A stretch of 64,000 nucleotides of DNA from Edaphochlamys debaryana (Eukaryota; Chlorophyta; Chlorophyceae; Chlamydomonadales): the NCBI GenBank assembly GCA_016858145.1, contig JAEHOE010000003.1:558001-622000 (forward strand), read 5' to 3'. The stretch's first letter is position 1. Each line of letters starts with the position of its first letter. The position numbers and the translations under genes are program-made. Below, one piece after another: positions 13,401 to 45,700 of this stretch. The notes under the pieces are model-generated. The model saw only the letters and a list, made by a program, of their open reading frames with translations, was not told where the DNA came from and did no database searches.

Positions 13401-14330
13401 GGTTGGATTGGCACTCGGCTCTGCGCGTGTGCGACTATGTGAACTCGGGTTGGCTGCTGGGTGAAGAAGCGCCGTGACACAAGGCGAGCGCGTGCGGTGC
13501 GCCCTTCTTGAGGCCGGAATGGGCATCGGAGGCTCGCCGGGATCGAAGCGGTTACGCGCCGGGCCCGAAAGTCCTGTGCGCTCGCGCCCCGGCCCCGCAA
13601 GCAGCGGTCCAGATGCATGATGGCGACACTGACTGTTGACGGAACGCTGCGAGGCCGCGAGCTACTGCCGCGACACACGAACCCGTCGCGCGCTGGGCGT
13701 GCCGATGCCCCGCCAGTCCCCGCCCCCTGCCCTCTTACGCCCCGTCCCTTGAGCAGGGGGGCCCATACTCGCCGGCCCTCGACCAGTCCTTCAGCCTATC
13801 AGTCCCTTTCCGCAAGCGCAGAGCTGCTTGCGCGGAGCTGCGTTGAGGATTGGGGGTCTCGCAGCAGACGCAAGGAGCGGGCCCAGCACCCGGTGCGCTT
13901 AAGCTGGACAGGGCTGGGTGGATCAAGGCTGGCGGCGCTCGGGACGAGGACGACAACCGAACCAAGCCTAACAAAGCAATGGATACTTGGCATTCGTCAG
14001 GCCTAGACTCGCCCGTCATCACAGTCGGCCAGAGGCCCAGAGCCATCGACCAACTGGGCCGCTGTTTCAGGCCCCTGCCGCAACGGCGCCAATTCATTCA
14101 CCTACTGCATTCCCCCTCATAGTCTTCAACTCTGTGGGTCCAAAGTATTCTACAGTCACCCCACAGGTGCGCACACACCGAGCTTGACGTTGCCCAGTCC
14201 CGCAATACGCCGCCCAGCCCTTGCCCCTTCTGCGTCAGCCCCAAGCAACTCACAGGCGGCACAGCCCATACTACGCTGGAATCAAAGCAACCCATATCAT
14301 GCCGTCAACCCCAAGCCTGCACCGTCTGCC
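13401..14330. other. Superoxide dismutase promoter region and 3' flank of the kinase-like gene
   Basis: No further gene is recognised. The right part (from about 14200) matches the 3' flank of the second kinase-like copy near 46063-46190 in inverted orientation, so the duplication extends about 130 bp past the stop codon. Confidence 0.5.
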
Positions 14331-16421: not shown

Positions 16422-17034
16422 CCTTGCTCAAGATGCAGGAGAGTTGAGTCGCGGACAGAGATACGAGAGGCGGCTGAGCCTTGAGTACCGGAAGGGAGGG
16501 GAGCTAGATAGCTTGGTAGCTTAGAGATCAAGGTGTGTGGATTGTGGGAGAGTCGTAAGAGCTGGGCCGGCAGGCAGCAGGCCCTCTTGTAGGCCAGCCG
16601 TGACTCCTTAGACCGTTCCCCTACTGCGGTTCGTAATTCCGCGCCACAGGCTGCCCCCAGGCGTGCTACTGGGCCGCAAGTAGGGGCTCAAGCAGCTAGC
16701 GTCTGGCCTAGCCTAGCGCGGGTGCGGGCTGGGCGCAAGCGGGAACTAGTTTTGCGGGACCCGGTGATCGTCTGCTGAAAGTGCGCTGCCGCCCTGCACC
16801 CCCAGCTGCTAGAAGGGCTACGGACAACCTGCTATCCTTTGGTGCAAAGAAAGAGGGCTGGCGCAAGGGGCCTGCAAACGCGGACTTGCCTTGCTGGACA
16901 GCCCGCCCCAGAGTGCCTTTGCCACCTTCTCGGGAAGCTCTATCCTCAGAGCTCTATACCATCACGCTGCGCAGCAAACCTCGGGGCGTCTGCGCAGGGA
17001 GAGCTCCACAAAGGGCGGTCCAGCATTTCGTCCC

Positions 17035-17038
17035 AGCC
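17035..17038. repeat. Target-site duplication AGCC, left
   Basis: AGCC immediately precedes the element start (TGACAGG). The same four bases follow the right end at 31140-31143. The empty site in the inverted paralogous arm has a single AGCC (43344-43347 on the opposite strand). Confidence 0.85.
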
Positions 17039-17469
17039 TGACAGGGCACAGTACTGTCGCTGTCACAGTATGGTTGCCGGTTGTGAGTTGAGGTGGGATG
17101 CCGGGGATTTGTGGTTGGTCTGCTGGTTTGTGCTGGAGGGTACGTCTAGGGTCGTGACTAGGGTTGTGACACCAGGGTTTGCCTCGTGGGACACGTGGCA
17201 TGAGCACCTGAGGTACGGCAATGAACCCTTCCGATCGGGGGGACTTAGGCGAACGCCCGGCTTCCGACTGGCAAGTCGGAAGCACTGCTGCTGCTACCAC
17301 GACGACTGAAACTACTAGAGTGTTGCTGCTCTGCTGCCTCTAGCGCCTGCGGCGTAGTCTCTGTGCCATCCGACGACCCCCGAGGAGCCTTCGCTCGACC
17401 CAGCTGCTGAGCCTCGGCGCTGGTCCTAGAAGTGAGCCCAGGCACCGCCTGCGTCTTTGCTCGCCGATT
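17039..17469 (+). repeat. Terminal repeat A1 (left end of retroelement)
   Basis: 431 bases identical to 30659-31089. Unlike a normal 5' LTR it is not followed by the 50-bp B sequence; the text continues directly as open reading frame. The first codons of that frame lie inside this repeat. Confidence 0.93.
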
Positions 17470-20400
17470 TGCTTCCGACTTCTCTTTCGTCCGCTGGCGC
17501 CGCGCGCTACGGACTCCCAGACTCGATCGCTCCGGGCCCCGCCCGCGCTGCGATCTGGCTTCCAAGGAGTCTTCTAGGAAGTCCAAGCAACAGACTGCGT
17601 CTGGTGCTGATAGGCGTGGGCCCGCGGCCGCGCCTCTGCCGATTCCTCAGCTCACGCCTGTGTCCACGACCGCGAGTCGAGCTGCAGCGCGCGAGCTCCG
17701 TAGACAGGAAGAGCAGGAGGCTAATCTCCCGATCGATCGTTTGGCTGCCCTGCTGAACGCCCGAAACGCAGGTACTCCCATACGCTCGGCACCTGCAAGC
17801 CCAACTCGCGGACGAGGCCGCGCTGACCCGCGAGCGGCTACAACTGCTCTTCGCGGCAACCCGCTATTTGAGCAAGACCCCACCGGCTCCGCCGGTGCTG
17901 GGCCATCGAACTCCGGAGGCTCCGGCGAGCCTCAACATCGTCGCGCGCCTTCGGCCGACCTCGCGACTGAGGCGACCCGCAACGACGTTGCGGGTCCTTC
18001 TGGCTCCAACTCCGGTAGCAGCGCTGCTGAAGCGTCTTCGGGACCGGGCCCCGCCCGCGTTCCCTCTCCGCCAGCCCCGCAGCCCTCGGCTGCGGGGGCT
18101 CTACCTGCACTCGCCGAGGAGCTCGGGCATCGCCTGCCGGCACCGCCCGACGCGCCTGGTGAGCAGCAAGATCTCGGCCCGGGCCCCGCCCCGGCCGATC
18201 AAGCACAGCCTCCCCAGCCTGTGGCTGCGGGGGCTCTAGACGTAGCACCTGCTGAGGAGGGCGACGGGGAGCAACCTCCTCCCGCCCCGGCGCTGCCTGC
18301 GCCGGCACCTGCTGCCCAGCTAGCTCCCCGGGCTCCGCCCAGGTGGAGTGAAGACGAAGACATGGGCGACCGCAACTGTCCCAGCTTCGATGCTAAGCCA
18401 ACTTCCCTTCCCGCCTTCCTGCAGTCCGCTCGCCTGTTCGTCAAGCAGTGGGCCATGAGCGACCGAGGCGACAACAAGGCCCTGATAGCCGAGCTCATCC
18501 TCGCCGGCATGGCCGGTGGGCTCACCAAGGATGGGGGCAACAACCTCAACCTGGTCGTGCAAGGCTGGTGCGCGACCGAGGGCACCGAGGCCCTGACTGA
18601 GCACAAGGACAAGTGGACCCTGCTCCACGCCGGCGTCGCCAATCCCCCTGAGTACAAGGGCCAGGCCAAGCTCCCTGACCTCAAGCTCGACGCCTGCGAG
18701 TACCTGCTGGAGGCCCTGGCCAAGAAGTTCGGCCGCGAGGACCCCACGTCCAAGAAGAGCTACGACAACTTCGGCGTCGAGCCCCTCGAGGACCCCATGA
18801 CGGCGGGCGCCCGCTTCCTCTCCATCGTCAGGCCCATCAGCGAGGCCAGCATCTCGAGGCGCGTCCGTACCGAGCGCTGGCTCCGGGCCGTCATGGAGTC
18901 GCACTGGGTCAAGGCCAGCTTCATGAATGACACCATCAAGGTCAGCTACCTGGGCAAGGAGGACAGCGACCCCACCGCCTGGGACCTCGCCAAGGCCATC
19001 GTCCGCTGCCACGAGATCTACAGTGCCTTCCGGGTCGAGCAGGAGGCCGCCGACAGCAAGGTCAAGGACCCCAAGAAGGTCAAGGCGTTCGCCACATCTG
19101 CTGGTCCCGTCTCCGAGAGCACCAGCGCCCCCGGCGCGGGCTCGGCCGACATCGCCCGCCTCTCGTCGCAGATTGAGCGCATGGCCAACAGCGTCTCAGC
19201 TCTGGCCACGCACTCCGGTCGCCAGGACCACGGCAAGGGCTACGGCGGCCAGGCGGGCGGGCGCCAGCAGCTGCAGCAGTCGAGCGGCGGCAGCAAGCCC
19301 CGCTGGCCCAAGGCGGAGCCCGGCCCCGCCACCGGCTCCACGGGCGACTGCTCCTTCTGCAACGCCAAGCACCACTCGGTGGACTTCTGCTCGGCCAACG
19401 CCAAGGCCGGCAACCTGACCGCGCTGCCCGGCCACCCCAAGTCCATCAACATGGACAACGCCTGGGCGGAGCTGGTTCGCAAGAAGCCGGAGTATGCGGC
19501 GCTGCTCTCGGCGCCGCGACAGCAGCAGCCGCAGGGCGACCGCCCCCGCAGGCAGGACTACGCCAAGCCCAAGGACAACAACCGAGGCAAGGGCAACCCG
19601 CAGCACGCGGCCTACGCTGCAGAGGCCTCGCCGTACCTGCAGTCCCAGGCTCCGCCTGCGGCGCTGCACTACGGCCAGGGTCCCGCGTCCTACGGCTACG
19701 GCTACGGCTACTCCACGCCGCCGCCCTTGTCGTACGGCCACAGCTACGGCTACGGCCAGGGTCCTCCGGCTCCGCCCGCAGGTGCCTTCGCGTCCTCGGC
19801 CTCCTTCCGGGCCCCGGCGGCCCCGCCGCCCGGTGTGCCGCCGCCACCGTCCTGGCCCATGGGCTACGGGGCTCCACCTTTCTCGCACCCACCGCCATCC
19901 TCGTACGCACCGAGCTCGGCGTCCGCTCTGCACACGGACGTTCTCTCGGTGGCCCAGCACCCGTACAACAGTACGTTCGTCACGTACGTGGAGTATGGCT
20001 CTCCCGGCGCAGCCCTGGCCACGTCCGCTTCGGTCTCCCAGCTGGGGGGGGGTATGAGCGCGTGCAACAGCGTCGGCAGCTTCGCCAGCAAGGAGACCGG
20101 CCCCGCCGTGTCCCCGACTGGGCCGCCAACGCCGATCCAGGGCCAGACCGTGTGGCCACCGCAGGCCTCCTCGACCGCGGCCTTCAACACCGCCAAGGAG
20201 CCTATGCCGGCCAGCTTCCGGCAGCTGCCCCCCGGGCCGCTGCCCAGCTCCATGCGCCTGCCGCCCGTGGAGCAGGTCTCCTTCTCGCACATGAAGGACG
20301 GCAGCTCTAACGTCCGCTTCGGCCCCATGGCTCCGGGCAAGACGGCGGCGGCGCTCGAGATCCTGGGCAAGATGATGGCCGAGCTGCTGGATCTGCTCAA

Positions 20401-23400
20401 GGCCCCCGAGGTGATGCCCGAGGCCTCCGCCCTCGCCTGCTCATCTGCGGCCGCCACCGCCGGCTCCAAGATGGAGGAGATCAGGCAGTACCTGAAGAGC
20501 GAGCTCGCCAGCTCCCTTCACTACGTCGACAACAGCGACCCCAAGCGCGGCGCTGGCCTGCTCAAGGCCGACGGCACCCTGATCTTCCCTCCCGGCATCG
20601 GACCAGACACCATGTGCAACACGGTGGGTCTGATGGTCCAGAGCTTGTATGAGAGCCTCGGCGTCAAGCTGGAGCCCTGCAACGCCGGCGTCAAGTCCCT
20701 GCGCCAGAGCAGCCGACCCCTCGGCATCGCCCGCGTGTGGAACGTCATCACACCTGGCACCGCGTCCGAGCTGCGCGTCTGCGGGGACTTCCTGGTCGTC
20801 CCCGACGACTGGGCGTCCGGTCTCTTCACCATGCTGTGGGGCGGGCCGCTCTTCCACCAGTGCGGCATGCTGTACGACTACTACCCGCGCCCGCACCTCC
20901 GCTTCCGCTCCGGGCTGCACCAGGGCGACGAGACCATCAACGGCCACGTGGCGCTGGTTCCGGCCCCGCCGGAGCTGGAGAAGGTGGCAGCCTCGCTCCG
21001 TGCCTGCTACGCCACGGCCCTGCTGCCCTTCGAGCCCTCGCCGCCTCCGGTGGCTGAGGCCAAGGCCCAGCCCAAGACCGTCTCTGTGCGTATCCCCACC
21101 ATGCGGTTCGATCCCAGCGACTACGCTCGCCCGCTGGCGTCTTCGCTGGGGCTGAGCGATCGCCGCATCCGCATATGGGACTGGAGCCCCACGGACGGCG
21201 CCAGCGTGGCCTTCGCCACCAGCCTCGACACTGCGGAGGAGCTGGACGAGGAGGAGATGCTCGTGTATGAGGACGAGGAGCTGGCGGAGGCTGACGCGCG
21301 AGGGGAGCTGTCTGGGTCCCAACTCGAGGAGGTGCAGCCGCACCACACCCAAGCGCCGACGTCCGCCGCCTCGGCTCCGCCGAAGGGGGTTCCCGAGATC
21401 CAAGCCCTGGCTACGCACGACCAGCCACGGCGTCCCGCCTCATCCCGAGATGAAGGGCGTCAGTCCAACCTCGGCCGCTCCCGCTCCCGCGACCGAGGTG
21501 CTGAGAGCCGAGGCCGTGACCACGAGCGTGAGCGTTCAGGTGACCGTCAACCCCGCCGCAGTGGCAGTGGTGGAGCTGGCGGCCGCCGACCTTCGGGCTC
21601 TCCGCAGAGGTCCCGCAGCCGATCCCCTGGGACGCCTGGACGGCTCTCAGGCTCACGCCGCCCCTGCACCCTCTGCAGCTGTCTGCGCGAGGCGACGAAG
21701 CTGCAGGCTTACCGAGATCTGGCCATCTTCCCTGGTCATGAGAACTACCGAGGTGCTGGCCCCCGGCTCGGCAACCCGCTGCGTTACCCACCTTGGTCGC
21801 GGCACAGCCAGGACTACTGCCTGCTGCACGCCTTGCTGGGCGGCCCCACGCTGCTGCGGTGGACCCCGGAGCTCCAGGACTCGCTCAGCAGCCTGGACAT
21901 CAAGGGCTTCTTCCAGCCCATTAACGAGGTCGATCTGCAACCATGGCCTGAGGACCTGCCTGCGCTCCCCCTGGCCAAGGCGTACGACCGAGGTGACAAG
22001 CAGCTTCGCCGTGAGTGCCGGTGGACGGAGGAGGTGCTGGCGCGCATGGGCCCCGACCTAGATCGCCCCAACGTCTCCGTCTACCGCCAGAGTGAGCGCC
22101 ACATCCACTCCAGTACTCACTTCATCGGTGCTTACATCGACTGGTGCCGTAAGCTCCGGGACTGGCTCGCCTTCAAGGGGCAGACCATCGGCTGGCGGGA
22201 GCAGCGACCGCTCCCGGCACCCCAGCCTGCCCCGCCACCGCCTCGCAAGGAGCGCAGCCGGCCCTCCGAGGTGCCCCCTGCCGCAGCCGCCGGGCCCTCG
22301 ACCTCGGCGACGCCCCAGCGCGACGCCGCGGCGGCGGGTCCCAGCGGCAGCGCCCAGGTGCGCAACCGAGAAGCGCTGGAGGCTGGCGCCCAGGCCCCGC
22401 CTGCAGTGCCTTCGCCCAAGCGCCAAGCGACCGCGACTCCCGCGACTCGGGCTCCGCCCGCAGCTCTGGAGGTGGCAGCTTCTGCGGACCAAGGCCCGCG
22501 CCCCGCGGGGGCGAAGCCCGTACCCACAGCCCCGGTGTTGGCTGCGGCTCTGGCGTCACGGTACCCTTACCTGCCGCCACCGCTGCCTGCCCCAGCAGTC
22601 CGCGATGCCCTCGTGCCTCCGCTACCGGCCGAGCAACCCGGTTCGGACCCCCAAGCCCTGCCGGTCAGCCAGCAGGCCTACATGTGGCGCCGTGCCTCGG
22701 CCATCATGGTAGGAGACGTCACCTTCGGTGAAGGCTGCGCGGATACGTATCAGCGCTATACGGAACGCGAAGCCGCGGTCGCCCTGCCGAGGCCGCCGCC
22801 TCCCGTCTGCGTCCTGGCATCCGTCTGCTACCACGGGTCCTCACTCACTGACGACGTCACGCCCATGGACCGCAACGACCTGTGCACCGGTCTGCTGTTT
22901 GGCGACAACGAACGATCCCGGTGGGAGTCACAAGGCCTCCCCAAGATCGAGATCACGTGCGCTGGGTTCGACATCACGCCGGCGTCGTATAGCGTCGACA
23001 TGGGCCTCACCGGGACAGGCTGCCTCATGCGGCAAGACCTCTTCGACGGCGTGCCCGTTGCCGTGCTGCAAGACACAGCGGTCGCTACCGCCGGTCTCTA
23101 CCACGAGGACGAGGGGATCAAGGTCTTCGGAGCGCGCGGTGTCAAGAAGTCGCTCTACTCCACCAAGCGCACGGCACGCGACGTACGCATCTTCATCAAC
23201 GGCACCCTGGGATGCGACGGCGCCCCAAATGATCCCGCAGCGATCATGGTGCAAGTGCCCGTAGCACCCGTCCTGCCCGTGGAAGACCTACCCTACGGCA
23301 TCGTGTTTGGGCGCCCATTCCTCTCCCTGCTGCGGGCAAACATCAGCGTCCGCACCTCAGGCGACGAGTACTGGCTGAGCTACCCCGTCGATGACACCGC

Positions 23401-26400
23401 CTCCTGGCGCACTCGGCTCTGGCTCTGCAACCGGTACACGGACAACGCCATCCGCTTCTGCGCCCTAGCGGCAGCCCCGGCTTCGAGCAAGGGGGGGGTA
23501 GAGTCCAAGCCCGAGTCCAAGCCCGAGCCCGAGTCCAAGCTCTCCTCGTCTTCAAACCTGCTCGAGCCGGCCCCGCCGCTCGCGACCAAGCCCGAGGTCT
23601 GCGCCGACGCCACCGCGCAGGACAAGCAACCCGCCTCCGCCAACGGTGATCCCGCTCCCGGCCCCGCCGGCGAACGGAGGAAGGAGGAGCTGCCCGACAG
23701 CAAGTACAGTGCGACTCCGCGCCAGCTGCCCCTCTGGGTCAAAGCCAACACCCCCGCCAAGCGCAGCATCAACGGGCCCGGCGCCGCCGGTCGCAGCCCC
23801 GCTACGGAGCCCCTCGAGACTGGTGAGTCCTCGGCTCCCGGCACCGCCGGTACTGAGTCGCAGGCCAAGGGCTCCAGCTCCCTCCCCAGCTGCGGCCTGA
23901 TGGACCACGACGTCTACGGCGTGTCCTTCGCTCGCGCCCTGCACCTGCTCTGCGATCTCGGTGCTCGCACTGTTGCTTACGGTGCCACCACCTTCGGAAT
24001 CTGGGTTCCCCTCCCGCTCTGCCCCAGGGCCATCGCGCGCCTGATCGCGGCCAGCCCTGTCTACGGCCCCGTGCAGCCGTACGACACCTTCGGTGCCAAC
24101 ACCACCGACACCGAGGACGAGGACTGGCACTCGACCAGCAGTGAGGAGGAGTCTGATGATGACGCGGAGCTGGACGAGCAGCTGGATGACTGGATGGAGC
24201 ACGTCCAGTGGAGGCTGGGCTGCATGATCCTGCGCCGCGTCACGCGCAGCATCAACCGCAAGCTGGCCCGCCAAGCGAGGCGCGAGCTGCGCCGACAGGA
24301 GGAGCTGCGTGCGCAGGCCTTCGCTGCTATGGAGCTGGCGCGTCGCCGGTACCAAAGCCTGGTCAAGCGTCAGTTCCTGCAGCTACGGGCGGAGCGCTGG
24401 GCGGCCGCGGCGGGCGCCAAGGTGTCCAAGCGCAAGTACGCACCGCCCGACACCAACACCAAGTCGGCGACTCCGGCGCGCTGGCGCCTCAACAGCTACA
24501 AGACCTTCACCTTCGCCATCGTGATGCTGGTCTTCCTGGGCTGCTGGCGGCTGTCGGACGCGACGCCCAACTGCGTTCCGCATCCGGCTTACCCTCAGGG
24601 GGGGCAGTGGCTGGCTCCGAGCTGGGCGCAGCTAGAGCAGTCACCCGCCACCACCCCGCTGGAGCAAGCCATGCGGCGCATCCAGCTGCGTGACCCGGCA
24701 CCGCCGGCGAGGCGCTCGCCGCCCCAGGCCCCGCCTGCGGGCTCGCCCTTGGCTGAAACACCTCCAGCAGAACCACCGAGCACCCTTGTCACGGGCACCG
24801 CACATGCAAACGCATCTAGTGTAGGGAGGCCTGCGGCTCCGCCGACAGAGCCGCCTGACGTAGCTGCGTCAAGGCCCTCGGCCGCCATTGTCACGACTCC
24901 TGATGGGGCTAGGGCACCGCCCGAAGACTCCACCTTAGTTAAGCAGGAAGCAGGCTACACTTTATGCATTCGACCTGATATGACTGAGGAGCAGCGCGAT
25001 AGCCTCAAGACGCTGTTCTCCAAATATGACCACTTGTTTGCTAGGAGCCTCAAGGACATTGGTTGCTACCGGGGGGAGTTGGGGCCAGTGAGACTCGAAC
25101 TCAAGCACAACAACCCAATATTTGAAGCGCCGCGACGACATTCGGCTGCCGAGCGGTTGGTCGAGGATGCCAAGTGCCGCGAGCTGTACGACATTATCGA
25201 GCCGTCCAACTCCACGCAGTACGCGATGAATGTAACCCTGCCACGTAAGAAGGGAATTGACGGTTCGTACGAATCCAACGAGTACCGCTATTGTGCGGAC
25301 GCGCGCCGTATAAATGCAGCGAGCGTGCGCGATTATTTCCGGCCGCCAGCGCCGGAAGACCTGTTCGATCGCATCCTGGGCGCGCGATTCATTACTAAGT
25401 GCGACTGCCGTGCCGCGTTCAACCAACTGCCGCTCGCCGAGGAGGATCGCGATAAGACCTCGTTCTGGTGGAACAACACCCTCTGGCGGTACAAACGGTT
25501 GATGTACGGCGCCGTCAACGCCACGGCAGCTTGGCAGCGAGTACTTTCGCACCACGTGCGGAAGTACGGCCTGCAGGACTGCGTGTACCTTTTTGTCGAC
25601 GACGCCGCAGTGACCGGCCGTACGGCAGAGGAGCACGAGCAGAATCTCGCGCGGTTCCTCGCAATGTTGGACGAGATCAACATCAAGCTGCATCCCGACA
25701 AGACCGTAGTCGCGGCAGACAAGATAGAGTTCCTAGGCCACATGGTGAGCGCTGACGGGCTCCGCCCGGTTCAGGCCAAGGTCGCTGCGATCCAAGCCAT
25801 CCAGCCCCCTCGCTCGCTGACCGAGCTCCAAGCCCTGCTCGGCCTCTGCAACTACTATCGTTGCTACATCCCCCGCTTCGCCTGCATCGCCAACCCGCTC
25901 TACGAGCTCACCAAGAAGGGCGTCACGTGGGGTCCCGAGACCTGGCAGCCGCGCCACCAGGAGGCCTTGGACCAGCTCAAGGCCGAGTTCTCGACCAACG
26001 ACCGGCTGCTGCGCAAGCCTGATCCCAACCGTCAACTGATCCTGCACACTGACTTTTCCAATGTAGGCATTAGCGCCGTCCTAGGCCAACTGGATGACGA
26101 AGGGCACGAGTACATGGTCGCCTGCATCTCGCGCTCACTCAACGTGCACGAGCGCAACTACACCTCCTACAAGGGTGAGATGCTGGCTGCCTGCTGGGCA
26201 ATGAAGATGCTGCGCCCCTACCTGATAGGCCCACGCTTCATCCTGGTCACCGACCACGCGCCCCTGCTCTGGCTGATGGAGAACCAAAACCTGGTAGGGC
26301 AGTACGCTCGCTGGGCGCTCTTGATGCAGGAGTACGACTTCGATGTCGCCCATCGGCCAGGCCAGCTCCACTATAACGCAGACACCCTCAGCCGCTCACC

Positions 26401-29400
26401 TCTGACCTCGAGCGCTGATGGCTCCGGAGCCCGCATGGACGAGGACTCCGACGCCAAGCCGCCGCCACCTCGGCTCGTCCCGTATCCGACCGTCACGCCC
26501 TCGGCGCAACCCACGGTGCTCATGTCTGCAGTCCAAGCCCTGGCGCTGCGCGCTCGAGAGGAGTACTCCCTGCTGGCCACCGTCACGGGACAGGGCTCCG
26601 CCCTCGCTCCCTCTCCTGACGAGTGGCTCGCTGGCGGCAACGGCACGGCCTCTGACCCCGCCGAGCGTTTCGCCGACCCCGAGTGCACTGCGGCTCAGCT
26701 CCAGACCCGACAGGCCAACCTCACCGCCAACCGCGTCGTGCGTGAGGCCCGAGACGCCCTTCGGGCGACCTCGCTTTCGCCGCCGCGTCCCCGCCGAGTT
26801 GCCGAGGGCCGCACCGCCGCCCTCGACACCAGCCTGCTCTCGCACCACTTCTTAGAGCATGCCCTCACGGAAGGGCTGGTAGTCGTGGAGTGCGGCACCT
26901 CCGCCGCCACGGGCCTCGAGGCCTGCCTCCGGGCGGGTTGGACCGTGCGCCGTTATCACACCCTAGGTGCGCCCGCGCAAGAGCATTCGCTGCTGCGCCG
27001 CCGCCTAGGCTGGCTCCGTGCCTCCTTTCCCCGACAGCTTCGCGGCTCCGCCGTTGAAAGCCCCTGGGCCGCGCTGCCGCCCGGTCCGCTCACCAACGAC
27101 CACCTCCTTGCTGCTTCCGCCAGGTCAGGGCAGCAATGGTTAGTGCTCGGCAACATAGACTCGACCCTGGCTCCGCCAGATAGAGTGCTAGAGCTCCTTG
27201 GCAGGCTCCAAGAGCTGCAACCCCGACTCCCGCCCGGCTTCCTGCTGGAGCGCGAGCCTCCAGCGTCTGCGGACACGCCCTTCGGGACCTGCCTCACGCT
27301 GGACACCGCTGCCATGGGCAGGGCCCAGCACTCGCTGCGCGCCTTCTGCACCAACCTCGCGGCTCCCGAGCACCTGCGCAAGGTGGCAACATCCGGTGCC
27401 TGGAGCCCCAGCAACCTCTCGGCAGCCGCAGCGGCACCCACGCGCCGCCTGCCCCTCTGCGAGGCACCCCTCAGCGAGCCCTACTCGGCCTGCGACGTGC
27501 CGGGTCGCCCCGTCACCGTCTTCCCACCGGGCAACCCCGCCGCTATCCAGCTAGCCTCCACCGCCTCGGCCGTGCCGTCGCCGCTGCTGCCAGAGGAGGT
27601 AGCCGCCCTGACCGGCCTGGAGCCTGCTTCGCTGCTGGAGCGGCGCAACGACGGCACCCTCGCCGTGCCCTCCGCCATCGACGCCCTGCAGCAGGGTCTG
27701 CAAACTCCAGCTGCTGCACGCATCTTTCTCTGCGCACAAGCCCTTCAACGCGCTTTCGTCACCCCGCACCACATGGCTCGCATGCCACCTCAGCAGGCGC
27801 CACCGGCTGCCCCGCTGGGGGGGGGTAGGGAGATTGAAAACAACACAGCGGCGCAGCCTGCAACCCTGGTCACCACCGTGCTGCAGCACCACCAATCCAA
27901 CGAGCACTGGACTTCTGCCCTGGTCTCGGCCGTCGCCGACGCACAGGAGTCCCGCTACTGCGACCCTTGGGAGGACAAGCAACTGCTCCACTACCTCGCC
28001 CAGGGCACCTGCCCCGCCGGCATTGTCGGAGAAGCGGCTAGACGAGTGGCGCGTCGTGCTATCAATTACCGTTTCGACGACCGGAGCAACCGCCTGTACC
28101 GCCGTATGCCCAACAGCACCAGGCGCGAAGTACCTCCACCTGAGCGCCGCCAAGCCATCATCCAGGAGGCCCACCACCGCCTGGGGCACTGGGGAGCTCG
28201 CCGCACCCTATGCCTGGTCCAGAACGGCTACTGGTGGCAAGGCATGTCCAGGGACGTTGAGTATGTGGTGCAGCGCTGCCCCCTGTGCGATCGGGCCAAC
28301 ACCGTTGGCAACGTCACTCCGCCCGAGCTGCACCCCCTGCCAATCCGTGGGCCCTTCTTCCGCTGGCACGTGGACCTGGCTGGGCCTCTCACGCGCACGA
28401 GCTCCGGCTACGAGTACGTCATGGTTTGCGTCGAGGCTTGGACCAAGCACGTGGAGATGATCCCGCTTCGCTCCAAGGGCTCCGAGGAGGTGGCCAACGC
28501 TTTCCTAGCCAACGTCCTGGCCCGCTTCTCGGCGCCCGCCGAGGTGGTGACCGATGGAGGCACCGAGTTCCAAGGCGCCTTTGCCGCCCTGCTCGAACAA
28601 TGCTTCATCGACCATCGTCACACGTCGCCCAACCACCCGCAGGCCAACGGCGCTGCGGAAAGGGTCGTGCAGGTCTGCAAACGCTCTCTGCGCAAGTACT
28701 GCGCTCAGTACGCCTCCGCCGAACGCTGGGACGAGTACCTGCCTTGGGTCCTGATGGGCTACCGCTGCTCCCCTCAGAAGTCCACCGGCAAATCCCCATT
28801 TGAGCTCATGTACGGCGCACCGCCTGCTGTGCCCCTCGGCGCCGCCGAGCTGTGGGCAGAGGCGATCGACCCTGATGCCGATCCGCAACGGGCCGACCAA
28901 CTCGTCATGCTGCGCTCACACAACGTGCAACAGGCCGCGCCTTTCAACGGCCAGAACCTGCTGACGGCGCAATGGCGAGACCGCCACAACTACGCCCGCG
29001 TGCGAGCTGGCGGTTACAAGCCCCGCTTCACCAAATTCAACGTGGGCGACTATGTCTACGTCATCCTGCGCAATCAAAACAACACGCTCCAACTGCCCGT
29101 CCGCGACACTGTGCTCCGCATTGTGGCCGTGAGCCCAGAGGGAGTTGCCGAGCTGATGGGCCGCGATGGCACCATCCGCAAGGAGCACGTGAGCAACCTT
29201 GCTCCCTGCCACCTCCAGGACCTGGACCCAATCGTCGATCCCCGCATTGCAGTGCCGCCGCTGGACCTGCCCTGCGAGATCTGTGCCTTCCCAGGCGACG
29301 AATCCAAGATGGTCATGTGCGACGGGTGCGGCACCGGCTGGCACCTGTACTGCCTTCGACCCCCGCTCCAGCGCGTGCCCCGCGGCACCTGGACTTGCCC

Positions 29401-30409
29401 CGACTGCCATGCTCGCGGCGTGACACCGGCAACAATCGATCAGCTGCCTGCCCCCGTACCGCGCGAGACACCGCAGCCGCAGATCTTCCCCTCCGCTCAG
29501 GCGCGCCGTCGACTCGGCGAGGCCAAAGCGCTGGAGGGCGTTCCCTGCTCCCGCAAGGTCCGAGACCCCGCGACCAACACCTTCGTGAACCGTAGGGGCA
29601 CCCTGCACTACAAGTCGGACGAGCCGCACTCTCGCCCCATTGAAGCGCGCTACACTGACGGCACCGCGGAGCGCCTGACTCTGCGAGCAGCCAAAGCATG
29701 CGCTCAACCGTCCGCCACGGCCCTCGTCGCGGCGGCTGGGGCCCCGCCCTTAGTCTTGCCCGACACATGGGACCTGTCCTCGCCCGGCGCCCGAGCTGCT
29801 GCGCTGTTGCAGCTGCGCTCCGTGCCCGGGCTGGCCTCCAGCCTGCCTGAGTCCTTTTCCACGGGTGCGCACCCTGCGCCCGCTGAGGAGGCGCTCAACC
29901 TGCTTCTGGACCACCTGGACGCAAGCCGATCGCCCGTCATTCTGGACCCGTGCGCCGGCGACGAGACCTTGGCCAACGCGCTCCGCGCGAGAGGCTACTC
30001 CGTCTGCGCCAACGGGGGCCGGGCCACCGAGGCCCCGGGCTGGCCCCGCTTGGATCCCCTACAACCTGGGACCTACCGCCGCCTCGCCACGCCCGGCGAG
30101 TCCTGGCTCATCATCTCTGCTCCGCACCCGGAGCTTCTGCCCTTCTGGCTGCCCCTGGCCGTCGCCATGGTGCCGCTAGTCGTGGCCTTCATCCCACGGC
30201 GCATGCTTACGGCCCCGCCGGACGCATGGGCCGCCCTGCTCAACACCTTCACGGAGGACGAGCGGCTGGCCATCATCACTGGAGACACCTGCGGATACGT
30301 CAACGGAAAGCCTGGAGCTTGGCTGTTAGTGTTCCGGGATGCGACCATGAGGGCGCAGCTGATGAGGGGTATCGGGAAGGGACGCGCTGGGCACTGGGTG
30401 CATGCGTAG
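17432..30409 (+). CDS. Retroelement gag-pol polyprotein with integrase, PHD finger and methyltransferase-like regions
   Basis: One frame of 4325 codons counted from a GTG at 17432; stops at 17246 and 17408 bound it and the first in-frame ATG is at 18362 (codon 311). Domains in order (residues from 17432): Pro/Ala-rich leader; gag capsid-like helices; CCHC zinc knuckle at 640 (CSFCNAKHHSVDFC); Tyr/Gly/Pro-rich tract; protease-like region with DTA at 1881 and VFGRPFL; Glu/Asp-rich and Arg-rich coiled segment; hydrophobic helix about 2359-2374; reverse transcriptase with FVDD at 2721-2724; RNase H (HTDFSN, Asp2874); cytosine-methyltransferase-like region about 3149-3320; integrase zinc finger from 3581; integrase core Asp3648, Asp3708, Glu3743; PHD finger from 3948; a second methyltransferase-like motif (DPCAGDE) about 4170. 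Catalytic residues look intact, so it may be active. Confidence 0.93.
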   Translation: MSPGTACVFARRFASDFSFVRWRRALRTPRLDRSGPRPRCDLASKESSRKSKQQTASGADRRGPAAAPLPIPQLTPVSTTASRAAARELRRQEEQEANLPIDRLAALLNARNAGTPIRSAPASPTRGRGRADPRAATTALRGNPLFEQDPTGSAGAGPSNSGGSGEPQHRRAPSADLATEATRNDVAGPSGSNSGSSAAEASSGPGPARVPSPPAPQPSAAGALPALAEELGHRLPAPPDAPGEQQDLGPGPAPADQAQPPQPVAAGALDVAPAEEGDGEQPPPAPALPAPAPAAQLAPRAPPRWSEDEDMGDRNCPSFDAKPTSLPAFLQSARLFVKQWAMSDRGDNKALIAELILAGMAGGLTKDGGNNLNLVVQGWCATEGTEALTEHKDKWTLLHAGVANPPEYKGQAKLPDLKLDACEYLLEALAKKFGREDPTSKKSYDNFGVEPLEDPMTAGARFLSIVRPISEASISRRVRTERWLRAVMESHWVKASFMNDTIKVSYLGKEDSDPTAWDLAKAIVRCHEIYSAFRVEQEAADSKVKDPKKVKAFATSAGPVSESTSAPGAGSADIARLSSQIERMANSVSALATHSGRQDHGKGYGGQAGGRQQLQQSSGGSKPRWPKAEPGPATGSTGDCSFCNAKHHSVDFCSANAKAGNLTALPGHPKSINMDNAWAELVRKKPEYAALLSAPRQQQPQGDRPRRQDYAKPKDNNRGKGNPQHAAYAAEASPYLQSQAPPAALHYGQGPASYGYGYGYSTPPPLSYGHSYGYGQGPPAPPAGAFASSASFRAPAAPPPGVPPPPSWPMGYGAPPFSHPPPSSYAPSSASALHTDVLSVAQHPYNSTFVTYVEYGSPGAALATSASVSQLGGGMSACNSVGSFASKETGPAVSPTGPPTPIQGQTVWPPQASSTAAFNTAKEPMPASFRQLPPGPLPSSMRLPPVEQVSFSHMKDGSSNVRFGPMAPGKTAAALEILGKMMAELLDLLKAPEVMPEASALACSSAAATAGSKMEEIRQYLKSELASSLHYVDNSDPKRGAGLLKADGTLIFPPGIGPDTMCNTVGLMVQSLYESLGVKLEPCNAGVKSLRQSSRPLGIARVWNVITPGTASELRVCGDFLVVPDDWASGLFTMLWGGPLFHQCGMLYDYYPRPHLRFRSGLHQGDETINGHVALVPAPPELEKVAASLRACYATALLPFEPSPPPVAEAKAQPKTVSVRIPTMRFDPSDYARPLASSLGLSDRRIRIWDWSPTDGASVAFATSLDTAEELDEEEMLVYEDEELAEADARGELSGSQLEEVQPHHTQAPTSAASAPPKGVPEIQALATHDQPRRPASSRDEGRQSNLGRSRSRDRGAESRGRDHERERSGDRQPRRSGSGGAGGRRPSGSPQRSRSRSPGTPGRLSGSRRPCTLCSCLREATKLQAYRDLAIFPGHENYRGAGPRLGNPLRYPPWSRHSQDYCLLHALLGGPTLLRWTPELQDSLSSLDIKGFFQPINEVDLQPWPEDLPALPLAKAYDRGDKQLRRECRWTEEVLARMGPDLDRPNVSVYRQSERHIHSSTHFIGAYIDWCRKLRDWLAFKGQTIGWREQRPLPAPQPAPPPPRKERSRPSEVPPAAAAGPSTSATPQRDAAAAGPSGSAQVRNREALEAGAQAPPAVPSPKRQATATPATRAPPAALEVAASADQGPRPAGAKPVPTAPVLAAALASRYPYLPPPLPAPAVRDALVPPLPAEQPGSDPQALPVSQQAYMWRRASAIMVGDVTFGEGCADTYQRYTEREAAVALPRPPPPVCVLASVCYHGSSLTDDVTPMDRNDLCTGLLFGDNERSRWESQGLPKIEITCAGFDITPASYSVDMGLTGTGCLMRQDLFDGVPVAVLQDTAVATAGLYHEDEGIKVFGARGVKKSLYSTKRTARDVRIFINGTLGCDGAPNDPAAIMVQVPVAPVLPVEDLPYGIVFGRPFLSLLRANISVRTSGDEYWLSYPVDDTASWRTRLWLCNRYTDNAIRFCALAAAPASSKGGVESKPESKPEPESKLSSSSNLLEPAPPLATKPEVCADATAQDKQPASANGDPAPGPAGERRKEELPDSKYSATPRQLPLWVKANTPAKRSINGPGAAGRSPATEPLETGESSAPGTAGTESQAKGSSSLPSCGLMDHDVYGVSFARALHLLCDLGARTVAYGATTFGIWVPLPLCPRAIARLIAASPVYGPVQPYDTFGANTTDTEDEDWHSTSSEEESDDDAELDEQLDDWMEHVQWRLGCMILRRVTRSINRKLARQARRELRRQEELRAQAFAAMELARRRYQSLVKRQFLQLRAERWAAAAGAKVSKRKYAPPDTNTKSATPARWRLNSYKTFTFAIVMLVFLGCWRLSDATPNCVPHPAYPQGGQWLAPSWAQLEQSPATTPLEQAMRRIQLRDPAPPARRSPPQAPPAGSPLAETPPAEPPSTLVTGTAHANASSVGRPAAPPTEPPDVAASRPSAAIVTTPDGARAPPEDSTLVKQEAGYTLCIRPDMTEEQRDSLKTLFSKYDHLFARSLKDIGCYRGELGPVRLELKHNNPIFEAPRRHSAAERLVEDAKCRELYDIIEPSNSTQYAMNVTLPRKKGIDGSYESNEYRYCADARRINAASVRDYFRPPAPEDLFDRILGARFITKCDCRAAFNQLPLAEEDRDKTSFWWNNTLWRYKRLMYGAVNATAAWQRVLSHHVRKYGLQDCVYLFVDDAAVTGRTAEEHEQNLARFLAMLDEINIKLHPDKTVVAADKIEFLGHMVSADGLRPVQAKVAAIQAIQPPRSLTELQALLGLCNYYRCYIPRFACIANPLYELTKKGVTWGPETWQPRHQEALDQLKAEFSTNDRLLRKPDPNRQLILHTDFSNVGISAVLGQLDDEGHEYMVACISRSLNVHERNYTSYKGEMLAACWAMKMLRPYLIGPRFILVTDHAPLLWLMENQNLVGQYARWALLMQEYDFDVAHRPGQLHYNADTLSRSPLTSSADGSGARMDEDSDAKPPPPRLVPYPTVTPSAQPTVLMSAVQALALRAREEYSLLATVTGQGSALAPSPDEWLAGGNGTASDPAERFADPECTAAQLQTRQANLTANRVVREARDALRATSLSPPRPRRVAEGRTAALDTSLLSHHFLEHALTEGLVVVECGTSAATGLEACLRAGWTVRRYHTLGAPAQEHSLLRRRLGWLRASFPRQLRGSAVESPWAALPPGPLTNDHLLAASARSGQQWLVLGNIDSTLAPPDRVLELLGRLQELQPRLPPGFLLEREPPASADTPFGTCLTLDTAAMGRAQHSLRAFCTNLAAPEHLRKVATSGAWSPSNLSAAAAAPTRRLPLCEAPLSEPYSACDVPGRPVTVFPPGNPAAIQLASTASAVPSPLLPEEVAALTGLEPASLLERRNDGTLAVPSAIDALQQGLQTPAAARIFLCAQALQRAFVTPHHMARMPPQQAPPAAPLGGGREIENNTAAQPATLVTTVLQHHQSNEHWTSALVSAVADAQESRYCDPWEDKQLLHYLAQGTCPAGIVGEAARRVARRAINYRFDDRSNRLYRRMPNSTRREVPPPERRQAIIQEAHHRLGHWGARRTLCLVQNGYWWQGMSRDVEYVVQRCPLCDRANTVGNVTPPELHPLPIRGPFFRWHVDLAGPLTRTSSGYEYVMVCVEAWTKHVEMIPLRSKGSEEVANAFLANVLARFSAPAEVVTDGGTEFQGAFAALLEQCFIDHRHTSPNHPQANGAAERVVQVCKRSLRKYCAQYASAERWDEYLPWVLMGYRCSPQKSTGKSPFELMYGAPPAVPLGAAELWAEAIDPDADPQRADQLVMLRSHNVQQAAPFNGQNLLTAQWRDRHNYARVRAGGYKPRFTKFNVGDYVYVILRNQNNTLQLPVRDTVLRIVAVSPEGVAELMGRDGTIRKEHVSNLAPCHLQDLDPIVDPRIAVPPLDLPCEICAFPGDESKMVMCDGCGTGWHLYCLRPPLQRVPRGTWTCPDCHARGVTPATIDQLPAPVPRETPQPQIFPSAQARRRLGEAKALEGVPCSRKVRDPATNTFVNRRGTLHYKSDEPHSRPIEARYTDGTAERLTLRAAKACAQPSATALVAAAGAPPLVLPDTWDLSSPGARAAALLQLRSVPGLASSLPESFSTGAHPAPAEEALNLLLDHLDASRSPVILDPCAGDETLANALRARGYSVCANGGRATEAPGWPRLDPLQPGTYRRLATPGESWLIISAPHPELLPFWLPLAVAMVPLVVAFIPRRMLTAPPDAWAALLNTFTEDERLAIITGDTCGYVNGKPGAWLLVFRDATMRAQLMRGIGKGRAGHWVHA

Positions 30410-30606
30410 ATAGGGTGGTGAACGGAGGGAGATGAGTTCTGCTGGCGGTAGCCTGGTGAGGACACTTAGCGAGCATGGGGGAGGATTGAGGTTTCTCTGC
30501 TGGAGGGAACTGTTGTGTACAGCCTGAGCGAACTGCTTCTGACTTAGCGTATGGCCTCGAGGCCGCCTGACTTCGCGTTGTTGGCTCTAGAGTCGCCAAG
30601 GGGGGG
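30410..30606 (+). promoter_or_regulatory. Retroelement 3' untranslated stretch ending in a polypurine tract
   Basis: About 190 bases separate the polyprotein stop from B1. The last nine bases (30598-30606, AAGGGGGGG) are all purine, the usual primer site for plus-strand DNA synthesis in LTR elements. The tract abuts B1 rather than A2, so the reverse-transcribed terminal unit would start with B. Confidence 0.6.
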
Positions 30607-30656
30607 AGTTCGGTCAGCCGGCTGCACTTTGCCGTAGCCCATAGTGTGTCCTGACA
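30607..30656 (+). repeat. Terminal repeat B1
   Basis: 50 bases from AGTTCGGTCAGCC to GTGTCCTGACA, identical to 31090-31139. It follows the purine tract and is separated from A2 by the dinucleotide GC. Confidence 0.93.
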
Positions 30657-30658
30657 GC

Positions 30659-31089
30659 TGACAGGGCACAGTACTGTCGCTGTCACAGTATGGTTGCCGG
30701 TTGTGAGTTGAGGTGGGATGCCGGGGATTTGTGGTTGGTCTGCTGGTTTGTGCTGGAGGGTACGTCTAGGGTCGTGACTAGGGTTGTGACACCAGGGTTT
30801 GCCTCGTGGGACACGTGGCATGAGCACCTGAGGTACGGCAATGAACCCTTCCGATCGGGGGGACTTAGGCGAACGCCCGGCTTCCGACTGGCAAGTCGGA
30901 AGCACTGCTGCTGCTACCACGACGACTGAAACTACTAGAGTGTTGCTGCTCTGCTGCCTCTAGCGCCTGCGGCGTAGTCTCTGTGCCATCCGACGACCCC
31001 CGAGGAGCCTTCGCTCGACCCAGCTGCTGAGCCTCGGCGCTGGTCCTAGAAGTGAGCCCAGGCACCGCCTGCGTCTTTGCTCGCCGATT
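30659..31089 (+). repeat. Terminal repeat A2
   Basis: 431 bases identical to A1 at 17039-17469, offset by exactly 13620. It is joined without spacer to B2 at its right end. Confidence 0.93.
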
Positions 31090-31139
31090 AGTTCGGTCAG
31101 CCGGCTGCACTTTGCCGTAGCCCATAGTGTGTCCTGACA
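31090..31139 (+). repeat. Terminal repeat B2 (right end of retroelement)
   Basis: 50 bases identical to B1. The element ends here in CTGACA, followed by the right AGCC target duplication (31140-31143) and then sequence that continues the duplicated arm as in copy B. Confidence 0.93.
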
Positions 31140-31888
31140 AGCCGCAACGCCTCCAGCCGTGCTCCATACGAGGACCCTGGTGCTTTCCCAAGCTACTGGC
31201 TGCTGACAGGACAGCTATGGGAATGCAGGGTGCACGCGCTCAGCGGTGTGACTAAACGGGGCTCGCAGCAGCCCCAAGCGCGGGTGGCTCAGGGGAGTAC
31301 GCAGGCTGTGTAAAAGCAGCGACAGGTGCGGGTATTCTTCGCTACGAGCGCCAGGTAAGGCCGGTCTTCGCGTTAAGCGGCTCCTGTCCTCTGTGGCGGG
31401 ATCTGGGCGCGTGGCGCCTTTGCGCAAGCTGCTTTCAGCAGGGAAGGAGGAGCTACAAGAGGTTCGTGCACCAGGCGCTCTAATGGCCCCAGCAGCGCCC
31501 TCTAGCGGGCGATGCGCTCGACGCCGCGCCGCCGGTCCCCTGGGTCACTGCCCCACGCACGCCCCCTTACCCGCACGCCCCTTCCCCGCACCGCGTTGCC
31601 GCAGCCCCGCCAGCCCCCGCTCCACCCCGGCCCCCACCTGCTCTGCGGTATGGCCGTCGCCGCCCGGCCCACATCAGGTCAACACGCGCCTTGCTTGCTC
31701 CCTCCTGCTCCTCCACGGCACGGGCGGCTCCTCCCTCTACAGCTCAAGGCCCGCCTCCCTCCCCACTCCACCCAGCCCACCCCGACATGTCTGCACCTGG
31801 CGTGGGCCCCTGTAAACCCCCCTGCCCTTGGCCGCTCTTCCTGTCCCGCTCCTCCGCCTCCGCCTCCCCTACCCACGCCGGACCCCCC

Positions 31889-42719: not shown

Positions 42720-45700
42720 CAGGCTCTCAGGCAGTCTGTGTCGTGGAGGAGCAGGAGGGAGCATGCCAGCGCCTAACTATTGACCCACCGCGGCTCAGGC
42801 GGCAACGGCCACACCGCAGGGCAGGTGGGGCACGGGTCGAGCGGGGGGCGCGGGGGCGAACTGGGCAGGACAAGGGAGAGGGGACGGGTGTGGTGGGGGA
42901 GGGGAACCCCGCGCACGGGGGCGCCGCGCGTAGGGCAGTGACCCAGGGGACCGGGAGCGCGGCGTCGCACGCATAGCCGGGCTTGCGGGCGCTGCTGAGG
43001 CCAGTAGAGCGCCTGGTGTGCCAACCCGTTAGCTCCTTCCCTGCTGAAAGCAGCCGCCCTCGCAAAGGCGCCACGGGCCGCAGATCCCGCCACAGCGCAC
43101 AGGACCGCCGGCGAATGCGAGCCCGGCCTTACCTGGCGCGCTTAGCACACAGAACACCCCGCACCTGCTTCTCCACAGCCTGCGCATTCCCTTGAGCCAC
43201 CCGCACCGCTTGGGGCTGCTGCGAGCCCCGTTTAGCCACACCGCTGAGCGCGTGCACCCTGCATTCCCATAGCTGTCCTGTCAGCAGCCAGTAGCTTGGG
43301 AAAGCACCAGGGTCCTCGTATGGAGCACGGCTGGAGGCGCTGCGGCTGGGACGAAATGCTGGACCGCCCTTTGTGGAGCTCTCCCTGCGCAGACGCCCCG
43401 AGGTTTGCTGCGCAGCGTGGTAGTATAGAGCTCTGAGGATAGAGCTTCCCGAAAAGGTGGCAAAGGCACTCTTGGGGCGGGCTGTCCAGCAAGGCAAGTC
43501 CGCGTTTGCAGGCCCCTTGCGCCAGCCCTCTTTCTTTGCACCAAACGATAGCTGGTTGTCCATAGACCTCCTAGCAGCTGGGGGTGCAGGGCGGCAGCGC
43601 ATTTCCATCAGACGATCACCGGGTCCCGCAAAACTAGTTCCCGCTTGCGCCCAGCCCGCACCCGCGCTAGGCTAGGCCAGACGCTAGCTGCTTTAGCCCC
43701 TACTTGCGGCCCAGTAGCACGCCTGGGGGCAGCCTGTGGCGCGGAATCACGAACCGCAGTAGTGCGGAGAACGGTCTAAGGAGTCACGGCTGGCCTACAA
43801 GAGGGCCTGCTGCCTGCCGGCCCAGCTCTTACGACTCTCCCACAATCCACACACCTTGATCTCTAAGCTACCACGCTCTCTAGCTCCCCTCCCTTACGGT
43901 ACTCAAGGCTCAGCCGCCTCTCGTATCTCGGTCCGCGACTCAACTCTCCTGCACCTTGAGCAAGGATGTCCAGCGCTAAGCATCAGGACGTCGCCAAGCT
44001 AGCAAGCCGCTTCATGACGACCGGAGCGACTGCTCCTACGGCTGTGGCCCCTCGCCAAGGGTGAGTCGGGGGCCTGAGGGCGGCTGGGCCGGGCGCTGAA
44101 GCTGCTGTAGCCGGACGCCAGTCGCAGATACAGCAATTAGAGAATTTCCAATCAGTATAGCTTGGGTGTGAACAGTGGCGGCTTAGGGTTGCTGGGGTTG
44201 CCTCCGCCGATGTGGATCGCCGGTAGCGCTGTGCGCAACTGGAGCATTTCGGGGCCGGCCGCTGCCACAATCACCCTGCAATCACAACCACAACGTTAAG
44301 GATGTCAGCAGAGGCTCCGTCGCAGCACGAGTTAACGGCTTGCCCCGTTCCATGTCGCGATGGTGCATCCCGAGTCGCGGGTCGCCAGCGCCGAGCAGCG
44401 CCGTTTTGTTGTTTCCCTCTCGCGTCCCCAACCCCATCTTCCTCCTCTCACTGCGCTATGCAGGTCCTCCGTGACGAAGCCGGCCACCACGACCGCCACC
44501 CGGCGTGCCCCTCCACCCAAGCGCTCGGCGTTTGGCTCGACCATCCCTGCCAGCCGCAAGGTGGGTCTTGGGGACGAAAGGGGCTGGACGGCTGCGACGG
44601 CACAAATGACAATGCATGGGCAGGGGCAGAACTTCAGGACCTCACCAGAGGTCTGTTCAAAAGCAGCAGCAATCGAGGGCGGGGCTCGCATGCAGACTCT
44701 TCCAACTTTCCCTGACGACACGCCTCGCTTGCCCTTGTCCCTTCCCACCCTCAGCCCACGTCGGCTTGCAAGGCACCGCTCCCCAAGGCCGCCCAGAAGG
44801 CCGCCGCCACCGCTGCCTGCGTCGGTGCCGCCTCCAAGGCCTCCCTGCTCAGCGCCAAGCCCACCGCACCGGCCACCCCGCCCACCTCCGACCGCCGCGC
44901 CCGCGCCTCCCCTCCCACCTCTGTCGCCGCCTCACCAGTCAGCAAGCCCGCGCCCATCCCGCCGGCCACCGCCCCCGCCTCCACGACCCCCTACTCCGTC
45001 CCGCGCACGCGTGATGACGTGACTGCGCTCATCCGCGAGCGCACCGGCATCGCTCTCTCACCGCTCACCGCCAGCACCACCTTCCGCTGCGAGGGGCTCC
45101 TGCAGCGCTCGGCGGCGTGCCTGCCTGGGACCGACACGGCCCTGTGCTCCGTGTACCGCGGCAAGATGGTCACCACACAGACCCTGGCGGGGGGCCAGAC
45201 GCGCAAGGAGGTGGTCGAGGTGGCCTGCAAGAAGGCCTGCCTCCCCGCCAACACGACCCCCGCCACCTTCAACAAGAACTTCAACATCGTCAGCGCCGAC
45301 CTCGCCGGCTACGCAGGGGCTCAGGCGGCCCTCAAGGCTGGGCCCTGCCGCGCCGCCGCTGCCAAGGCCGTCCTGCCTGTGCTGGGCTGGGACGTGGAGG
45401 GCCCCGTGGACGGCCTGTTCTGGGTGGTGTACTACACCGCCTGGGCGCCGCTGGGCACCCTGCAGCAGCGCATCTACGACCTCGCGTGCGGCGCCGGCCT
45501 GAGGCGCTCGGCCAGGGCCCACGCCCCGGGCGAGCACCCGGCCCTGCCCGGCACCCACCTGGCCTGGTCCGAGCTGCTCTCGCTCCTGGTCGCCAAGGTG
45601 GAGCAGCTGGCGCTCTTCCGCGCCCGAGGCATCGTCATGCCCGACAACAAGTTCCAGAATGACCTGGTCACGGCCGTTGGCTGCCTGGCCGCCATCGACT

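Follow-up and report, generated by a model that had tools for sequence, protein, structure and literature searches.

Background

A Ty3/Gypsy element carrying a PHD finger is known from a green alga (REM1 of Chlamydomonas reinhardtii), and Tf1 is an example of a retrotransposon with ordinary long terminal repeats (LTRs). Split direct repeats in the order A1...B1-A2-B2 are described for Ngaro, PAT and VIPER elements in the relevant passages of PMC4157794 and PMC6681497; these elements use a tyrosine recombinase and, according to the passage in PMC4157794, make no target duplication. A DIRS-type repeat structure combined with Gypsy-typical domains is reported in the legend to Fig. 4 of PMC5890265 (2018) for KnitGypsy-Dnmt3 of Klebsormidium nitens. 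Self-priming of reverse transcription is given as known or predicted for the Tf1/sushi, Tcn1 and TAR lineages in those parts of the literature that deal with priming. Here we analyse a 14.1-kb Ty3/Gypsy-like element of the green alga Edaphochlamys debaryana, located at 17039-31139 of a 64,000-nucleotide stretch of contig JAEHOE010000003.1 (the window, with about 67.6% G+C; all positions refer to it). Its order is A1–internal–B1–GC–A2–B2. It resembles Ngaro, PAT and VIPER in this respect and differs from them in enzyme and target duplication. We consider it probable that this is a Ty3/Gypsy-type LTR retrotransposon in which the LTR of reverse transcription and the ends of integration are out of register.

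Borders and repeats of the element

The element is delimited as follows.

17035..17038, no strand: left target-site duplication AGCC (from sequence and empty paralogue)
17039..17469, forward strand: A1 repeat, 431 bp, left end TGACAGG; promoter, R and U5 presumably lie here
30607..30656, forward strand: B1, 50 bp, the LTR start as reverse transcription should define it
30657..30658, forward strand: GC spacer between two integrase-type ends
30659..31089, forward strand: A2, 431 bp, identical to A1
31090..31139, forward strand: B2, 50 bp, identical to B1, right end CCTGACA
31089/31090, forward strand: A2/B2 seam, the variable seam of the family
31140..31143, no strand: right target-site duplication AGCC (from sequence)
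43207..43476, reverse strand: inverted paralogue of the element flanks with empty insertion site, a single uninterrupted AGCC

Since the paralogous site is uninterrupted and holds one AGCC, it fixes both the element borders and the 4-bp duplication. The preliminary description, made from this sequence, had listed A1=A2 (431 bases), B1=B2 (50 bases), the intervening GC and a 4-bp duplication, and coordinates and identities agree with it on all these points. The inserted ends are TG...CA with a short fixed duplication, as expected of Ty3/Gypsy elements, although the same full LTR is not found at both of them. Of the features of DIRS, Ngaro and PAT elements, the split direct repeats are present; a tyrosine recombinase (scan of the 4325-codon frame) and insertion without target duplication are not found.

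The empty site belongs to a large inverted duplication around the element (14260-17038 and 31140-31280 versus 43207-46133, 86-99% complementary), whose element-free arm retains it.

Register of reverse transcription

Four short features define where reverse transcription would start and end.

17260..17283, forward strand: hairpin GCTTCCGACTGGCAAGTCGGAAGC, in A1
17273-17284, forward strand: putative self-primer AAGTCGGAAGCA, the hairpin 3' arm plus the next base, complementary to the primer-binding site
17470..17481, forward strand: primer-binding site (PBS) TGCTTCCGACTT, adjoining A1, perfect complement of 17273-17284
30598..30606, forward strand: polypurine tract (PPT) AAGGGGGGG, adjoining B1

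Because the PPT adjoins B1 and the PBS adjoins A1, the standard scheme of reverse transcription defines the LTR as B-GC-A (483 bp). Taken in this way, the element has its PBS at the 5' LTR and its PPT at the 3' LTR, as do Ty3/Gypsy elements in general. The inserted ends lie inside this LTR, at B/GC/A. The earlier reading of the arrangement as equivalent to a two-LTR circle, with B-GC-A as LTR, that was cut open within one of its LTRs is supported.

A self-complement of 12 nt would arise by chance with a probability of about 2.5e-5 in 420 positions (calculated by hand). This self-complement was taken as the putative primer in place of a tRNA. PBS and hairpin covary between two sequence families of the element, family 1 having TGCTTCCGACTT/AAGTCGGAAGCA and family 2 TGCTCCCGTCTT/AAGACGGGAGCA. 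The hairpin of a copy on contig C137 implies a further PBS, TGCTACCGTCTT; a degenerate search, its pattern made wide enough to admit this sequence, gave one match (C346, following the same A end, its own hairpin not seen) and 0 control matches. As in Tf1/sushi elements, the PBS can pair with RNA of the element itself, close to the 5' end if the RNA is assumed to start near the hairpin. The Tf1 primer, as described in the passages on its priming, consists of the first 11 RNA bases; here it would be the 3' arm of a hairpin, with copied stretches of up to 19 nt. Three copies (C20, C34, C151) show A, then PBS, then bases of the hairpin loop (GCCAGTC, GCCAG and AACG, respectively) in place of internal sequence, a pattern that copying of the self-primer into plus-strand DNA would leave. 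The C34 copy was compared with the hairpin of the related C49 copy, none being detected at C34, and the copied stretch in C151 differs from the primer at one base. PBS-length remnants (C24, C58, C65, C119) were also considered as discriminating evidence and dropped, since some normal left ends share the next base.

In 109 of 115 hairpin matches, a figure that includes some overlapping loci repeatedly, the volvocine poly(A) signal TGTAA follows the hairpin arm at a distance of 24-46 nt. Neither A1 nor A2 of the window has this signal.

Copies in the genome

We wondered whether this repeat order is peculiar to the window, the preliminary description having left open a one-off insertion of a circle. 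The genome (141.9 Mb in 502 contigs, the window lying on C3) was searched with patterns for the repeat junctions. At least 40 copies of A were scored. The searches matched 34 A2/B2 seams, 61 A1/PBS junctions (a few of them unrelated), 59 PPT/B1 junctions and 69 B-GC-A sites with 0-1 mismatch, one of the latter (C53) being a B end followed by flank. For B-GC-A the analysis covered the first 100 of 114 matches, sites with two mismatches being included in part; a PPT pattern restricted to a run of six Gs matched 2 sites, a number that does not enter the counts.

Seventy left ends were found by script and 50 were paired with a right end; where several right ends were in range, the one with matching duplication was chosen. 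Perfect 4-bp duplications are present at 42 of these 50 pairs, at 42 different sites. A further insertion, on C195, escaped the script; it is flanked by TACC at either end and brings the insertions with target duplications to 43. Writing I for the internal region, 36 of the 43 are A-I-B-GC-A-B, two of them with an inverted segment. Another three are A-I-B, one of full length (C195) and two with deletions that start at the PBS and run inwards (C119, C65). The remaining four are solo A-B (C10, C82, C108, C151). Neither ordinary-LTR copies nor mirror copies (A-B-GC-A-I-B) occur among the 43, as judged from three junction patterns and the ends fetched from their matches.

Both families contribute to the 36 insertions. 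Family 2 has A and B sequences distinct from those of family 1, the same repeat order and its own duplications. Two right ends on C24 (L158, L159), of different sequence again, show PPT-B-GC followed by TGTCAGA, and the GC spacer is identical across all three. The split order is a trait of the family, shared by 36 insertions in two sequence families, with the same PPT-B-GC start in further right ends of other sequence, and the idea of a one-off circle has to be abandoned.

An ordinary LTR element could have acquired the split order through a rearranged founder or through misassembly. Some contigs do share the same right flanks (e.g. C90, C210, C456), and part of the copies are thus assembly or segmental duplicates. 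Yet the order recurs at 36 different sites and in a second family, and the window holds an empty site; given this site and the number of distinct insertions, assembly error was rejected. Copies with B-A at both ends were looked for as well: B-GC precedes A1 in none of 51 readable family-1 left ends (from 53 family-1 loci with A-PBS-internal) and in none of 12 distinct family-2 left ends. Moreover, after a rearranged founder the next reverse transcription would restore ordinary LTRs unless the rearranging step recurred each time. This origin is very improbable.

Divergence between A1 and A2 of the same copy is 0.43% (20 rows, 18 elements, 9 without any difference), compared with 3.7% between copies (278 sampled pairs). 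The family is young.

Family-2 elements were also seen inside the B repeat of family-1 elements, near the integrase junction (C19, C48; L026, L039, L157). In other DNA (viral and genome contigs, protein and alignment queries) the searches for relatives gave 0, 5, 27 and 6 stretches with the pattern, and tblastn confirmed none of them.

Constant and scarred seams

The two seams of the element behave differently. B1 runs on into GC-TG at 55 of 59 PPT-B sites; the other four are the three A-I-B copies and C48, where B is interrupted by a family-2 insertion. The A2/B2 seam is variable. After copies with equal right flanks were collapsed, 60 distinct right ends remained, classified by script as 36 exact and 24 other. 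Two of the latter were reclassified by eye as exact: C49, whose change lies within B, and C137, whose seam is exact when judged against its own subfamily. The totals are then 38 exact and 22 scarred seams. The C58 seam is counted as scarred although its B2 is not established. Outside the 60 are L011, L012, L049 and L062, which have no recognisable A end (rearranged copies at C235, C109 and C218), and right ends without readable PPT upstream, such as L027 and L140.

Scars comprise one extra T or C, one or two bases changed or lost, truncations in which a few bases are shared (C13, C53), remnants of PBS length (C24, C58), filler sequence (C28, C122, C3) and inversions (C2, C15). In each of the two inverted copies, one seam suggested that the DNA between an internal break and the A2 end had been turned round. 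B2 and the duplication should then lie at a distance of about 14.1 kb from the left end, and they were found there, the duplications being GGCT (C2) and GACT (C15, B2 truncated). Scars and inversions together indicate that both the A2 end and the start of B existed as free ends at the time of joining. Since B1-GC-A2 is constant while A2/B2 is scarred, integrase appears to use the internal junction, and the cDNA ends appear to be joined by repair.

Private B variants are common to B1 and B2 of the same copy (e.g. C81, C17, C39, C88), which implies that B2 derives from the same cDNA as B1. The shared variants would also be expected if RNA were read through from A1 to B2 and copied into collinear cDNA, the repeats being homogenised by template switching and no internal cut being made. 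Against such inheritance, 22 of 60 right ends are scarred at A2/B2 while 55 of 59 PPT-B sites continue into GC-TG and the other four are explained, and two inversions end at the A2 end. In addition, the 109 of 115 hairpin matches mentioned above have their TGTAA within A, before B2. Read-through is quite unlikely.

Four A2/B2 seams from two families, L033 (C28), L050 (C122), L014 (C3:422k) and L169/L197 (C151), contain parts of one rare filler, namely a long hairpin TGTCGGTGCCGAGGAGCC... and, in two seams, a body whose opposite-strand sequence ends CCCCCTTTT, in the manner of a gene for a small RNA. The filler pattern has 12 matches in the genome, 8 of them in these four seams. It could be an RNA that the element carries, or else a DNA end that is favoured; no tRNA was detected in five loci scanned, and Rfam matches stay below gathering scores. 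Another right end, L053 (C137), reads A2-B2-GC-B; the additional B that follows GC looks as though a B-GC end, once cut, had been joined to the start of another B.

Proposed course of transposition

The following course would produce these structures. Transcription would start in A1 and the RNA would be polyadenylated in A2, as the TGTAA signals suggest. A hairpin arm from the RNA's own A region would then pair with the PBS and prime the minus strand, a step for which the sequence gives strong support. Following the standard LTR scheme, the PPT would prime the plus strand at B1, yielding linear cDNA BGCA-internal-BGCA. The DDE integrase, which the sequence points to as the acting enzyme, would recognise CCTGACA-GC-TGACAG in the 5' LTR, drop GC and insert the TG/CA ends; these ends and the 4-bp duplication are what the copies display. 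Finally, host end joining would link the cDNA's A2 end and B start into the A2/B2 seam, where the scars are seen. Joining may come before integration (giving a two-LTR circle) or after it, possibly once strand transfer has left a gapped chromosome.

That only the 5' LTR junction is used probably reflects timing, this junction becoming double-stranded soon after plus-strand transfer and that of the 3' LTR after 13 kb more of synthesis. Timing is the simplest reason on offer for the preference. On this reading, a truncated cDNA that has kept the 3' LTR alone should use the junction there. C65 and C119, in which A and a remnant of the PBS run into a 3' part of the internal region that ends in B, agree with this, as they would with later deletions.

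Several observations weigh against this account. Mirror copies number 0 of 36, where a freely opened two-LTR circle predicts an equal share, and the proposed reason for the asymmetry is itself conjectural. The A-I-B (3) and solo A-B (4) insertions would fit one-LTR circles or double cuts, and recombination after insertion as well. B differences not shared by B1 and B2, as later mutation gives, occur in L019, L025, L034, L076 and L077, and single extra unshared ones in L047 and L060. Eight of the 50 paired ends have no matching duplication (C178, at a contig end, C170, C413, C454, C457, C460, C463 and C48; five on contigs under 22 kb), and 20 of the 70 left ends have no right end in the fetched data. 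The whole case is read from genome sequence.

Were a two-LTR circle formed first and then opened without preference at either B-GC-A junction, the observed order and the seam scars would result as well, and retroviral integrases can cut LTR-LTR junctions, as the pertinent parts of PMC1180852 and PMC2615046 report. Mirror copies would then be expected in half of the cases, so that their absence has a probability of about 1.5e-11 (calculated by hand). This argues against a completed circle whose two junctions are equally open to use, a course that we regard as unlikely. In foamy virus and human immunodeficiency virus (HIV), as those parts of the two papers describe, DDE integrase cuts a palindrome-like end-to-end junction after CA; there the cut junction consists of the joined cDNA ends, whereas here the cut would fall within the LTR, and the seam of the joined ends is a separate one. 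We are inclined to believe, with some reserve, that this green-algal lineage normally uses its DDE integrase on an internal end-to-end junction, the cDNA ends being closed only by host end joining.

If so, the ends of reverse transcription and those of integrase, normally taken as the same in LTR elements, are separated here, and DIRS-like split repeats can arise without tyrosine recombinase. Such a course offers a concrete origin for split direct repeats and suggests a step between Gypsy and DIRS/Ngaro elements. It would further provide, in dozens of insertions, a natural case for the old question whether integrase makes productive use of an end-to-end junction or circle, with the A2/B2 seams as a record of host end joining.

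Coding content and relatives

The coding features are listed below.

17432..30409, forward strand: single open frame of 4325 codons without stop, the codon count not being taken from a settled start codon
19349..19390, forward strand: gag-like zinc knuckle CSFCNAKHHSVDFC (CX2CX4HX4C), recognised by eye
25364..25744, forward strand: reverse transcriptase (Pfam RVT_1, residues 2645-2771), VDD at 25595
25943..26335, forward strand: RNase H (Pfam RT_RNaseH_2 / RT_RNaseH)
28133..28303, forward strand: integrase H2C2 zinc-binding domain (Pfam)
28358..28660, forward strand: DDE integrase core (Pfam, PDB matches, sequence), D 28373, D 28553, E 28658
29273..29407, forward strand: PHD finger, 3' of the integrase

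The frame starts within A1 and ends upstream of the polypurine tract. The order reverse transcriptase-RNase H-integrase with a DDE triad is that of Ty3/Gypsy elements. The triad is intact, as had been noted before (codons 3648, 3708 and 3743, spacings 60 and 35). The core scores 30.9 bits against rve, under the Pfam cut-off of 32.6, and matches the prototype foamy virus (PFV) and Ty3 integrases of PDB. Pfam recognised no protease in the 4325-codon frame. Nor did a scan limited to that frame match a tyrosine recombinase (E up to 0.05).

These results bear on a DIRS/Ngaro-type cycle, in which a tyrosine recombinase supplied in trans would insert a circle. The repeat order is the one described for Ngaro, PAT and VIPER in the passages of PMC4157794 and PMC6681497 cited above. 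Such a recombinase transposes without target duplication (PMC4157794, same passage), yet 42 of 50 paired ends carry 4-bp duplications, the ends are TG...CA, and the open frame encodes its own D, D, E integrase and shows no tyrosine recombinase match. The cycle is exceedingly improbable.

Among the best 120 of 190 pol homologues, many have a PHD finger and some a PF00145 domain. One of them, the K. nitens protein P0094, has 42% identity to the window pol over 28% of the query. The PMC5890265 legend, by combining DIRS-like repeats with Gypsy domains, shows that the split-repeat architecture with Gypsy domains is not new, and the suggestion of a class without precedent is not supported. KnitGypsy-Dnmt3 has a DNA methyltransferase (DNMT) domain whose key residues are conserved, whereas the window element has only a stretch without Pfam match. 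Should the Klebsormidium element behave in the same way, the habit would extend across chlorophytes and charophytes. Within the parts of the openly licensed literature searched, no account of the mechanism or of the full feature combination was found, and only PMC5890265 shows the architecture with Gypsy domains. The mechanism seems new relative to that literature, the architecture being already known.

C5 cytosine methyltransferase (PF00145) is often present in relatives, again among the best 120 of 190 homologues. In the window element, the RNase H-integrase interval from about 26882 resembles, by eye, a decayed remnant, and 29936-30400, C-terminal to the PHD finger, a degenerate methyltransferase (DPCAGDETLA); neither has a Pfam match. 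A homologue with 35% identity (P0062) is filed under a Minisyncoccia bacterium metagenome-assembled genome and is probably an algal sequence binned with the bacterium.

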